Of a stretch of 64,000 nt of DNA, positions 17,238 to 51,301 are shown one piece after another (the stretch's first letter is position 1; every line of letters starts with the position of its first letter). The notes under the pieces were generated by a model. It was given only the letters and a program-made list of their open reading frames with translations, searched no databases and was not told where the DNA came from. This DNA is from Nannochloris sp. 'desiccata' (Eukaryota; Chlorophyta; Trebouxiophyceae; Chlorellales; Chlorellaceae), in assembly GCA_019044685.2 (NCBI GenBank), contig JAGTXX020000002.1:372001-436000 (forward strand). The letters are read 5' to 3'. Position numbers and translations under genes: made by a program.

Positions 17238-19416
17238 TTAGCTGAAGCTAATAGGGTTGTTGTCAGGCATGTTGGGCATGAAAGTCGGAGGCACAAGGAC
17301 ACCAGCAACAGAGGCATTACCCAAAGCCCAGGTACCACCCTCGAAGATCTGCATGTAGTAGTTAGTATCGAGAATAGTAGCGTTATTGGCAGTCCAACTG
17401 AGCTTGGTGGCATTGAGGATGGACTCGCCAGCATCGAAAGCGACTTGCTGATCGGGGGTGGGGGTGTCGGTGCTGTTCGCGGGAGCCATCAAAGTGGCAG
17501 CCATGCCAACGTTGGTGGTGTTAAAGGCCTTGTTAAGAGCAGCACGGTAGTCAGTTTGCTGTCTAGACGGAGCAAAGAGACCCTGAGCGGTAAAGGCAGC
17601 TGAAGTACAACCAGCAACGAGCAAAGTAGCAACCCATCCGAGGAAGAACTTACCCAGCAATTTGAAGTTATAACGGGCAGCAGCGTTCTTGTCACCTTTC
17701 AATCTAGCGGTAATAACCTCCTCAAGGCCAACACCCGTGATAGCACCAGTAATAACCTGGGTGGTGGAGACGGGGAACCCGTAGCGAGAAGCCACGATGA
17801 CGATGATAGCAGCAGTCAATTCAGCACAGTATCCACGAGAATTTGTCAATTTAGTCATCTTGACACCTAAAGCACCAATGATTTTGTAACCATACGTCGC
17901 CAGACCAATAACAAGACCAACACCGCCGAGAACAAACATCCAAATAGGGACCGATGCTTTAGAGTTGGCGCAAGCGCACTGCCAGATAGCATATACACCA
18001 GCCATTGAACCAATAGCATTAGCAACATCATTAGCACCGTGAGCAAAAGAGTTCGCACAAGCAGTCAACACTTGGAGGTATTTGAAAGAGTATTCGGTCT
18101 TCTTATCGAACATCTCCGCATCATTATGCATTGCCATGATCTTTGCGTCATCTTTCACTGAATCGTGGATGTCATAATTGGAGCCATATGCCAATCCAAT
18201 CCAAACTTTAGATTTACGCATATTTTGAAGCATAGCAGGGGTGCGATTAGGCATGGCAGCGGCAGCGGTAGCGTCCTCATCACTTGCTTCTGGTGTAAGA
18301 GTACCAGCAGCGTCTTTAGCACCAACACCACCAGCTTCAGCACCAGCAGCAGCAATAGCAGCCTTGTGAGCCTCTTTAGCAGTTTCAGCAGCTTCATCCT
18401 TGGCCATATCACGCTCAACAAGCTTGACGATCAACTTCAAGCATGCAACGCAGATGACCGTGACGACAGCTGCGGTAACGGTAGAGATCCAAGCATTCTC
18501 TCCGTCTGCAATTGCGCAGCCAGTAAGGGAGAAAGTAATTTCGTCACCAGAGGTCTTGTTTGATGTTTTTCCACCGCTGCTACCAGGGGGGCAAGAGGGT
18601 TTGGAAGGGTCAGTTACGGGAGATGTGCTTGTGTAGGTCTTGTTTTTCATCCAACCGTTGACTCCCTTTTGGATAACGAAATACGTAATAACCCAAATAG
18701 TGATGAAGGTATACAAGGGAAAGAGCCAGAGAGAACGTCTAAACGGATTTTTCGCCCTTAAAACGACGAGTTTCGTGAACAAGAAGAGTAAGCCAGCAAC
18801 AATGGCAGCCATAGCAGGGGTGATGAACCAGGCAAGAACAATAGAAACCACACCTCCGGGGAAGGGAGAACCAGATTTAGGGGCAGAGTACCAGACGACA
18901 GAATCAACACCAGAAGCAGCTAAAGACATACCGATGAGAGCACCGACGATAGAGTGAGTAGTAGAGACAGGTAATTCAAGGAAGGTGGCCAAGGCGAGCC
19001 ATATTCCAGTGGCGAGCAAAGCGCAGACCATACCATACATGAGCAATTCAGGCTCATACGTATAAGCACTGACTTTAGCAATACCGGACTTGATAGTATC
19101 TGTGACACCAGATCCAAGCAAAACAGCCCCTCCAAATTCGCAGACGGAAGCAACGAGGATGCATTGTTTCATGGTGAGAGCCTTGGCGCCGACAGAGGTA
19201 GCGAAAGCATTGGCGACATCATTGGCACCTGAAAGAATAGAGAAAACAATGAGGAAGAAAGAAGGGTTAAAAAATATTAGAATTTGGTGGCTCTGAGAGG
19301 CCCTCGGCTGACACAACATGGTTGCAAGATGTAATTTAGAACTTACCAATACCCCAAGCCACGAAAAGGGCAAGGAAGATAGAGCAAACGAATAACCAGG
19401 TATATGTATCCCACAT
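17238..19416 (-). CDS. PiT-type (SLC20) sodium-phosphate symporter
   Basis: Two exons, 19416-19347 and 19228-17238, 686 residues. The intron splits the Gly codon of the first signature, which reads WGIGANDVANAFATSVGAKAL only after splicing. That confirms the short first exon (starting MWDTYTWLF). The second signature, GANDVANAIGSMAGVYAIW, lies in the C-terminal half. Membrane halves of about six segments each flank a hydrophilic loop rich in Ala, Glu and Lys. Family role: phosphate uptake coupled to sodium or protons. The C-terminus is an atypically long, Asn/Thr-rich tail with several N-x-T/S sites (STDTPTPDQQ..., NATKLSWTANNATI), likely exposed. Confidence 0.92.
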
Positions 19417-20758
19417 TGCGACTAAATTTCTCTAATCTGCAGAGTTAAAGGAGAGAAAAGAGGGAAATATTAAATGTCAAGTGACAAGACAAAGAATAAT
19501 TGTGATTAGGTGACGTTGAGCTGAAAACCCTATATACATCCAACTTTGCAATAGGATAATATTTTACTATTGTACAACCCCAAGTAAAGAGAAGTAAGAG
19601 CGAGAAGGGTCGTTCTGAAGGAGAAAACAACCTCATGCCTCCTGGGGGGAGTAACACATCCAGAGGTAGAGGTGAGACTTGCCAGGGCCTTGACGCTGCG
19701 TAAACTGTGCATTAATTTGAATCTAAGATACTTACCAAGGGGTTAGAGGGTCTCTGGATCAAAATTGAACCACTGCAAAAATTCAATGAAACAGCTTTCA
19801 TAATGAGCAATGATTGACTGAATGGTAAACATTGAGGCACAGAAACACGTTGGAATAGACAGGAGCTGGTTTTAACTTACGATTTATGGTTAGTATTGTA
19901 TTAAAATGCAGAGAATTGCGGTGACGGCTACTCATAAGCAAAAAAGCATCATTTTCAGCATCTCGCAAATGAAAATGCTTTATTAAGATGCCCAGCATGC
20001 ACCGCAGCATATCCTCTGCCTCGTGATCATACTGGGCGGTAGCTTGGTAAGGAGGGCACCATTATGTTTCAAACTCTTTATTCATCAACTACTGACTACA
20101 CTCAATTATATCATTACCGAAGTAGAAAATAACTACTGAGAAGGGAGATAAAACTGCAATAACGCAACAGCTTTATTTACTTGGGAAAAAAACGGAATGT
20201 CATTAAAAACGACTTTGAAAAAAATTAAGGGTTAAAAACTCATATGAAATAAAATCAACTTATGGACTGAAGGTAAGGTACACAAACACTAATTCAATGA
20301 GGATAAAAAATGTTTTTTCCTAGTTCATTGCAATGTGTCGTTCGTTATTGCTTTTGATCAGTCCTTCCACCTAAAGTCAAATTCACATTTCTATAGAGAG
20401 CAAAACATCACCACTGTAGATCTTTGACATTAACGACTCTAATTCTGTCAATTAATATTCTCTTTTAACTATTCTAGGTCAAGCCTGCGCCTTTGCCGCC
20501 TTCTTGCCCTTTTTCTTCTTTAAAGAAGTCGACAAAAGAGCCTTAATTTATCTGCAAATGTATCGCTCTGTAACGTCTGAAGTGGCGCGGAAGTGATACG
20601 ATCGCTTCCATTAGGCATCAATAAGAAAGTTCATTTAACCTGAGCAACAAGATCATCGGCCTTCTCGTAGGTCACTGGGTATGTAAAAGTCCATGAGCTA
20701 GGCAATCGGGTGCAGGCAGGGTGGTATGCTCAAAATTAAAAGTTCTGAAGAGGACAGA
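19417..20758. other. Long non-coding stretch upstream of PiT and downstream of the kinase
   Basis: 1.34 kb without a convincing gene. A donor-like CTTAC on the plus strand near 19735 and pyrimidine tracts allow a 5' UTR intron of the PiT gene. Around 20470-20720 the minus strand holds two short coding-looking tails: one lysine-rich (SLKKKKGKKAAKAQA then stop) and one ending DDLVAQVK then stop. Neither has a start or a family match. Confidence 0.4.
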
Positions 20759-40527: not shown

Positions 40528-41121
40528 TTTAATCTTCGTAGGAAGGTAGAGTAGAGTTATTTTTGAAAGGGGTTATAAGAAAAATGCTCAGCGAATTCAG
40601 GCATTGTTAGCTCGAGGAGATCAGAAAATTGCTGTGCTGTTTCTTTTGTATTATTTTGGGGAAGAGGGAATGTTTTGGTTTAGACATGTTTAGCTTGTTT
40701 TTCTGACTTTATTTTAACAACCTTCTTTTACAGTTTATTATACCAAATTTCAACTGATGTAGCTTTTAGTGTGACGATTTAGTACGTAGAATTAAGCGTA
40801 TTTGAGCAAATGGGGCGGGAGCGGCAAGACCATCGCCAGCGGTGCTGACACGCCTTTTCCAAAGATCTGCCACTGCGTGCGCCCTTACCTGTCCTCGTTC
40901 CCAATCATTCTAGCTCTGTTAATTTACCTTGCAAACGAACAATGGCTGGGTAATGGGGTGTAGGATAGGTAGGATAGGTAGCTTCGCCGCAATGAGGAGA
41001 GCGTGAATGCCAAAAAAGTGTCAAGTCGACTCAGAAATCGACCTTTGGCGGCGCCTTTCGACGTCTCTTGGTGTATAAGATGCGGAGTAGAGCCAAAACT
41101 ATTAAAAGTATTATTATTATC
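40528..41121. other. Intergenic spacer left of the tRNA
   Basis: 594 bp. It holds a short imperfect tandem repeat (GTAGGATAG units near 40960-40982) and a TTTT run on the minus strand near 41107-41104 that fits a Pol III terminator for the tRNA. No ORF is credible. Confidence 0.5.
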
Positions 41122-41205
41122 CTTGAGTGCAACGCCTTAACCGCTCGGCCAAAGAGGCAACAGTGCCTCCTGCAGGATTCGAACCTGCGCTCTTACGAAT
41201 TGCAA
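41122..41205 (-). tRNA. Circularly permuted tRNA-Leu(CAA)
   Basis: On the minus strand the 3' half comes first. 41205-41164 gives loop base U38, anticodon 3' stem TGCAA, an 11-nt class II variable arm, T-arm GCAGG-TTCGAAT-CCTGC, acceptor AGGAGGC and discriminator A. A 5-nt spacer (41163-41159) follows. The 5' half at 41158-41122 then gives acceptor GCCTCTT, TG, D-stem GCC/GGC with loop GAGCGGTTAA, anticodon 5' stem TTGCA and loop CTCAAG. Rejoined, all four stems pair (one G-U in the acceptor), the anticodon is CAA, A73 is typical of tRNA-Leu, and the total is 79 nt. B box (GGTTCGAATCC) therefore precedes A box (TGGCCGAGCGG). Confidence 0.92.

Positions 41206-50722: not shown

Positions 50723-51301
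<579 letters not shown>

Follow-up and report, generated by a model that had tools for sequence, protein, structure and literature searches.

A circularly permuted tRNA-Leu(CAA) gene in Nannochloris sp. 'desiccata', one of at least 22 nuclear tRNA genes found in this layout

Introduction

Circularly permuted tRNA genes, in which the 3′ half lies upstream of the 5′ half, were brought together in a 2014 review whose table holds 34 of them from six algae and one archaeon, with at most 11 in any one genome and none for Leu(CAA) (PMC3978253). Cleavage of the precursor, its passage through a circle and the trimming of its ends by RNase P and tRNase Z are known from Cyanidioschyzon merolae and green algae, the circular intermediate having been demonstrated in the former (PMC3978253). 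For Nannochloris desiccata UTEX 2526 a genome of 21.6 Mb with 45.0% GC is given (PMC12633428). A Picochlorum genome paper, in which tRNAscan-SE was used, does not contain the word 'permuted' (PMC11092101). Among the papers listed by full-text searches, to which the 2022 genome paper on this alga did not belong, none was seen to report permuted tRNAs in Nannochloris.

Here, the window under study (the whole stretch of 64,000 nucleotides analysed, 45.0% GC) is part of contig C2 (804,739 bp) in a genome of 21.55 Mb and 18 contigs. A phosphate transporter encoded in it (17238-19421, minus strand) matches KSW81_003954 of Nannochloris sp. 'desiccata' with 98% identity across 61% of the query. It contains tRNA-Leu(CAA) as a circularly permuted gene, an observation which the present analysis confirms and sets beside a genome-wide survey of tRNA genes.

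Results

Layout of the tRNA-Leu(CAA) gene

The gene occupies the minus strand, a point left unstated in the original prediction, and re-reading of the sequence gives the order in the transcript as 3′ half, 5-nt linker and 5′ half (Table 1), so that the claimed inversion of the two halves about a 5-nt gap is borne out. From its upstream end the 3′ half reads T38, TGCAA as the 3′ strand of the anticodon stem, TTCGTAAGAGC as the variable region, the T arm GCAGG-TTCGAAT-CCTGC and the acceptor 3′ strand AGGAGGC, followed by A73. The 5′ half opens with the acceptor 5′ strand GCCTCTT, continues through TGGCCGAGCGGTTAAGGC (nt 8 to the end of the D arm), G26 and TTGCA, and closes with the loop CTCAAG. 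Rejoined at 37/38, the halves give a tRNA of 79 nt in which the acceptor, anticodon and T stems form as had been proposed, with 7 of 7 acceptor pairs (one G-U), 5 of 5 anticodon pairs and 5 of 5 T-stem pairs, and in which U8, U33, the discriminator A, the A box and the B box are all present. The anticipated placing of the B box ahead of the A box in the transcript is found as well, and the TTTT run said to follow the 5′ half starts 14 nt beyond nt 37. The linker agrees with the short linker that marks type II permuted genes, for which the review range is 1 to 74 bp.

Table 1. Features of the permuted tRNA-Leu(CAA) gene, in window coordinates.
Feature	Position	Strand	Basis
G at leader −3, expected to pair with C32 (anticodon-intron pair)	41208	minus	
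3′ half, nt 38 (41205) to discriminator A73 (41164); upstream in transcript	41164-41205	minus	
T arm B box, GGTTCGAATCC	41175-41185	minus	
Linker CTGTT between A73 and G1; CCA not encoded	41159-41163	minus	
5′ half, G1 (41158) to nt 37 (41122)	41122-41158	minus	
D arm A box, TGGCCGAGCGG	41141-41151	minus	
Anticodon CAA	41123-41125	minus	ARAGORN on rejoined halves and sequence
First TTTT 3′ of the 5′ half, candidate Pol III terminator	41104-41107	minus	

ARAGORN calls tRNA-Leu(caa) on the rejoined halves, in agreement with the predicted CAA anticodon, and makes no call on the same DNA in genomic order. The expectation that an ordinary tRNA search would miss the gene or return a fragment also held: on the 64-kb window ARAGORN gave no tRNA (as run, it also missed ordinary intron-containing tRNAs of the same genome) and Rfam at gathering score gave no match, while Rfam at a relaxed E-value matched the T arm alone, at 15.7 bits against a cut-off of 29. 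Four further families in the relaxed search of the window (Plastid-ycf2, CRISPR-DR20, YrlA and Plastid-psbl-rps4) lay far under their cut-offs and were set aside as chance or tRNA-arm resemblance. A covariance model, R1, built from five natural permuted genes of the genome and six ordinary tRNAs permuted in silico, with the window's gene excluded, scores that gene at 43.1 bits (E about 1e-14), the top non-permuted locus reaching 18.8 bits. A structural scanner for permuted tRNAs, which required at least six acceptor and at least four anticodon pairs, U33, and T or C at position 8, gives it 20.5; when the window was dinucleotide-shuffled 100 times, matches scoring 20 or more came up at a rate of 0.01 per 64 kb. 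The scanner makes a single further match in the unshuffled window, at 17.4, and matches of 17 or higher come up 0.88 times per shuffle. The minimum free energy (MFE) fold of the linear precursor has a z-score of −1.18, draws no cloverleaf and contains no strict bulge-helix-bulge at the junction; for the rejoined tRNA the z-score is −1.15.

A second, contiguous tRNA-Leu(CAA) gene, which the original prediction had named among the signs of a relic, was not found at the sensitivity of BLAST and D-arm pattern searches. BLAST of a 131-nt query against the genome returned the self match alone, with no second copy of either half. Two leucine D-arm patterns, allowed up to three mismatches genome-wide, gave 11 and 5 places, and the 15 of these 16 that were read (C10:971214 was left unread) were the permuted Leu CAA, TAA and AAG genes, Ser genes and chance matches, with no second Leu(CAA).

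On the plus strand of the window, a trinucleotide repeat at positions 51075-51233 gives an open frame with 53 successive cysteine codons, each TGC or TGT.

Permuted and ordinary tRNA genes in the genome

A genome search with RF00005, in which 63 of 825 candidates were scored, gave 16 matches, ten above the cut-off and six below it (L012-L017) that are pieces of permuted tRNAs. Genome-wide D-arm patterns, which are blind to the 3′ half, were then applied and the contexts of their matches read. Every place was cut out and read in sets of 9, 26 and 11; 60 of the 108 matches in the largest set were cut out and 2 were known from other searches; 7 of 65 places were read and 2 already known (Pro-TGG and His), as were 4 and 3 respectively of 22. 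The smaller sets comprised one of 5 places (2 read, 2 known, 1 left), one of 10 (1 read, 1 known, 8 left) and a second set of 11 (1 read, 2 known, 8 left). The census is incomplete, so that 22 permuted and 9 ordinary genes are both partial counts, and the sole permuted layout sought was type II, with its junction at 37/38.

At least 22 permuted genes stand against nine ordinary nuclear tRNA genes in this incomplete survey (22 of 31 permuted). The permuted genes are those for Leu (CAA, TAA, AAG), Arg (TCG, ACG, TCT), Thr (CGT, AGT, TGT), Val (AAC, CAC), Ile (TAT, AAT), Lys CTT, Ala TGC, Tyr GTA, Cys GCA, Asn GTT, Phe GAA, Gly GCC, Ser GCT and elongator Met. The ordinary genes comprise Val TAC, Gln CTG and Met CAT (read as initiator) without an intron, and His, Pro TGG, Pro AGG, Ser TGA, Ser CGA and Asp with an intron placed by eye at 37/38; in this incomplete census 28 of the 31 nuclear genes found (22 permuted and six with introns) therefore need a cut at 37/38. 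No gene was found in it for Glu, Trp, Lys(TTT), Gln(TTG), Ala(AGC/CGC), Gly(TCC/CCC), Ser(AGA), Arg(CCG/CCT), Leu(CAG/TAG) or Pro(CGG), which may be permuted, ordinary or missed. The Ser(GCT) of loci L005 and L006, on two contigs, resembles a mitochondrial gene and was excluded from the nuclear count. Identical inverted stretches occur between the end of contig C6 and C13, and in inner segments of C15 (L005/L006, L100/L105, L098/L099, L106/L107, L133/L134), which suggests duplicated or redundant assembly segments.

Once the halves are rejoined, ARAGORN recognises each of the 22 permuted genes and gives it the expected anticodon; it recognises none of them unjoined. Of the 12 possible acceptor and anticodon pairs, cognate halves form 11.77 on average and never fewer than 11, an average that is high partly by construction given the pairing thresholds of the scanner; the mean over the 462 non-cognate combinations is 5.92, and a single combination attains 11. 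The best partner of each 3′ half is its own 5′ half in 22 of 22 cases, with one tie. U8 is present in all 22 and U33 in 21 (Val CAC has C33), U33 and T or C at position 8 being scanner requirements. Single mismatches occur in the anticodon stem of Leu TAA, the acceptor stems of Thr CGT and Thr TGT and the T stem of Ile TAT, while Ala TGC and Cys GCA have in common a T29-T41 mismatch in the anticodon stem. The lowest R1 score among the permuted genes is that of Thr CGT (34.0 bits), five of the 22 being in the model and matching by construction. Two registers were set by hand, those of Cys (a variable region of 5, as R1 aligns it, where the scanner chose another) and of Val CAC (51.5 bits with R1), whose C33 the scanner bars. 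Linkers range from 5 to 55 nt, CCA follows the discriminator directly in none of the 22, and all 22 junctions were read at 37/38, as placed from stem pairing and the −3 pair. The discriminators of the set, among them G in Ser, Asn and Lys, T in Cys and A in Leu, fit the eukaryotic rules. The permuted Val CAC (C12:299083) and Val AAC (C12:300922) genes lie 1.8 kb apart with linkers of 29 nt in both, and look as if one permuted gene had been duplicated as a unit.

A splice-site pair in the leader

In nuclear tRNA introns the base three positions upstream of the 3′ splice site pairs with nt 32, and in a permuted transcript the leader stands where the end of the intron would be. In 17 of the 22 permuted genes the leader base at −3 pairs with nt 32, against a mean of 11.7 when the −3 letters are shuffled among the genes; 17 or more was reached by 1 of 20,000 shuffles in one run and by 0 of 20,000 in another. 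At the remaining leader positions from −1 to −12, between 1 and 10 of the 22 pair with nt 32. Leaving out Cys, with its hand-set register, 16 of 21 pair, a value reached by 2 of 20,000 shuffles. The window's gene has C32 and the G at −3 as its anticodon-intron pair, C32:G(−3); the pair fails in Leu TAA, Lys, Ile AAT, Thr AGT and Val CAC. The genome also has two genes with a PF01974 (tRNA_int_endo) domain, at C6:1157389-1157655 (69.6 bits) and C1:82990-83214 (57.6 bits). The tRNA splicing endonuclease is indicated because the nt 32:−3 pair is that of ordinary tRNA introns, and the covariation, as evidence independent of the scanner, points to recognition of permuted precursors by this enzyme.

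In permuted Lys CTT the leader includes TAAGAG, the complement of the gene's own anticodon loop CTCTTA, as in anticodon-intron pairing.

Flanking sequences

A TTTT run starts no more than 17 nt past nt 37 in all 22 permuted genes, the chance being 14% per 24 nt of window. Motif search of the downstream flanks yielded chiefly the T-run motif TTTTGC, which stands within 45 nt of 11 of the 22 permuted genes (the window's gene not among them) and of 6 of the 8 ordinary genes tested, with a chance of 2.1%; since it follows permuted and ordinary genes, both seem to be ended alike. No common TATA element was seen by k-mer counts in the listed upstream flanks of permuted genes. An element like TCCGACACCATTTGACC lies +66 to +70 past nt 37 of permuted Val AAC, Ile TAT, Phe and Leu TAA, with a weaker match at +76 after the ordinary Asp gene; the pattern was chosen by eye from those genes and has 17 matches, with up to four mismatches, in 360,770 bases. 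A second element like CACCCCATTTGCGATCGA lies +32 to +43 past nt 37 of permuted Ala, Ile AAT, Gly and Thr AGT, a pattern likewise chosen by eye, with nine matches in total at up to four mismatches.

Discussion

The inverted layout, the pairing of the rejoined halves, the covarying anticodon-intron pair, the T run, the endonuclease-domain genes and the finding of no other Leu(CAA) gene are together very probably explained by a functional type II (37/38) permuted nuclear gene, the sole Leu(CAA) gene found, in a genome where most of the nuclear tRNA genes found share its form. We infer its transcription, cleavage, circle formation, end trimming and charging along the following lines. Pol III would make a single RNA of leader, 3′ half, CTGTT, 5′ half and trailer, ending in the T run. 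The anticodon stem would join the ends of this transcript and offer 37 and 38, with C32:G(−3), to the tRNA splicing endonuclease; ligation of the cut ends would give a circle, from which RNase P and tRNase Z would remove the 5-nt linker, and CCA would then be added. Counting against this reading are the modest MFE z-scores and the precursor fold that draws no cloverleaf, the failure to see a strict bulge-helix-bulge or a common TATA element, the five permuted genes in which the anticodon-intron pair fails, and the lack of TTTTGC after the window's gene.

Among the alternatives the best survivor is a relic, in which the outer halves of a tandem Leu(CAA) pair were lost, the remainder goes unprocessed and an ordinary gene elsewhere gives the tRNA. 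It draws on the partial nature of the genome survey, in which RF00005 scored a small part of the candidates, but neither BLAST nor the leucine D-arm patterns found a second Leu(CAA), and the locus has lost none of its 12 acceptor and anticodon pairs and still has U8, U33 and both boxes. Such a relic is made unlikely by the 21 further tRNA genes arranged in this way and by the covariation at the predicted splice-site pair. Less probable still is that the halves work in trans like split tRNAs, joining partners at other loci and forming no circle; archaea do have split tRNAs (PMC3978253), but here every half has its cognate within the linker distance, own halves are the best partners throughout and neither Leu(CAA) half has a second copy by BLAST. 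A chance resemblance or tRNA-like element that is not a tRNA gene, with which the modest MFE z-scores would agree, is hardly credible given the rarity of scanner matches in shuffled sequence, the score from a model built without the gene and the ARAGORN call on the rejoined tRNA.

The layout originally predicted stands, and it is common in this organism. We consider it likely that nuclear tRNA genes of this alga are as a rule permuted, given the proportion permuted at 37/38 and the still larger proportion needing an endonuclease cut there. To our knowledge this would be the largest such set, the number in Auxenochlorella lying outside the comparison. Since the layout occurs in at least 22 genes, many tRNAs of the alga are probably cut and rejoined before use; if so, circular RNA intermediates would be the main route to the tRNAs for Leu, Ile, Thr, Arg, Phe, Tyr, Cys, Asn, Lys, Ala, Gly and elongator Met, whose genes would carry the Pol III boxes in reversed order. 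Because ordinary tRNA searches miss permuted genes, annotation may give a false picture of the tRNAs of this alga, and perhaps of those of its relatives. A single genome with 22 examples allows the rule for the splice site to be deduced from covariation. The alga would also be a good subject for asking why permuted tRNA genes appear and multiply, whether the A box has to precede the B box for Pol III, and what follows when nearly all tRNAs rely on a single endonuclease.

Among the described systems, the prasinophytes Ostreococcus and Micromonas likewise have nuclear genes permuted at 37/38 with short linkers, class II tRNAs (Ser, Leu) included, but only 3 to 6 per genome and, as tabulated, none for Leu(CAA), in contrast to at least 22 in the present trebouxiophyte (PMC3978253). 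The nucleomorph of Bigelowiella natans has the type II layout and even a 5-nt linker, although this is the relict nucleus of an endosymbiont and tRNA-Ser alone is listed for it (PMC3978253). The principle is the same in C. merolae, whose Leu(CAG) gene is type II with a 9-nt linker; this red alga, however, has 11 genes with junctions at four positions, and most of them have an upstream TATA-like element within 50 bp, of which no common counterpart was seen here (PMC3978253). Closer by lineage is the trebouxiophyte Auxenochlorella, whose permuted genes came to light after tRNAscan-SE had left its tRNA set incomplete; it is another genus (PMC12633428, 2025). The Leu(CAA) gene adds to the known permuted tRNA genes, and what is unusual is the scale within one genome, the 22 found here being twice the largest set (11) in the table of the 2014 review (PMC3978253).
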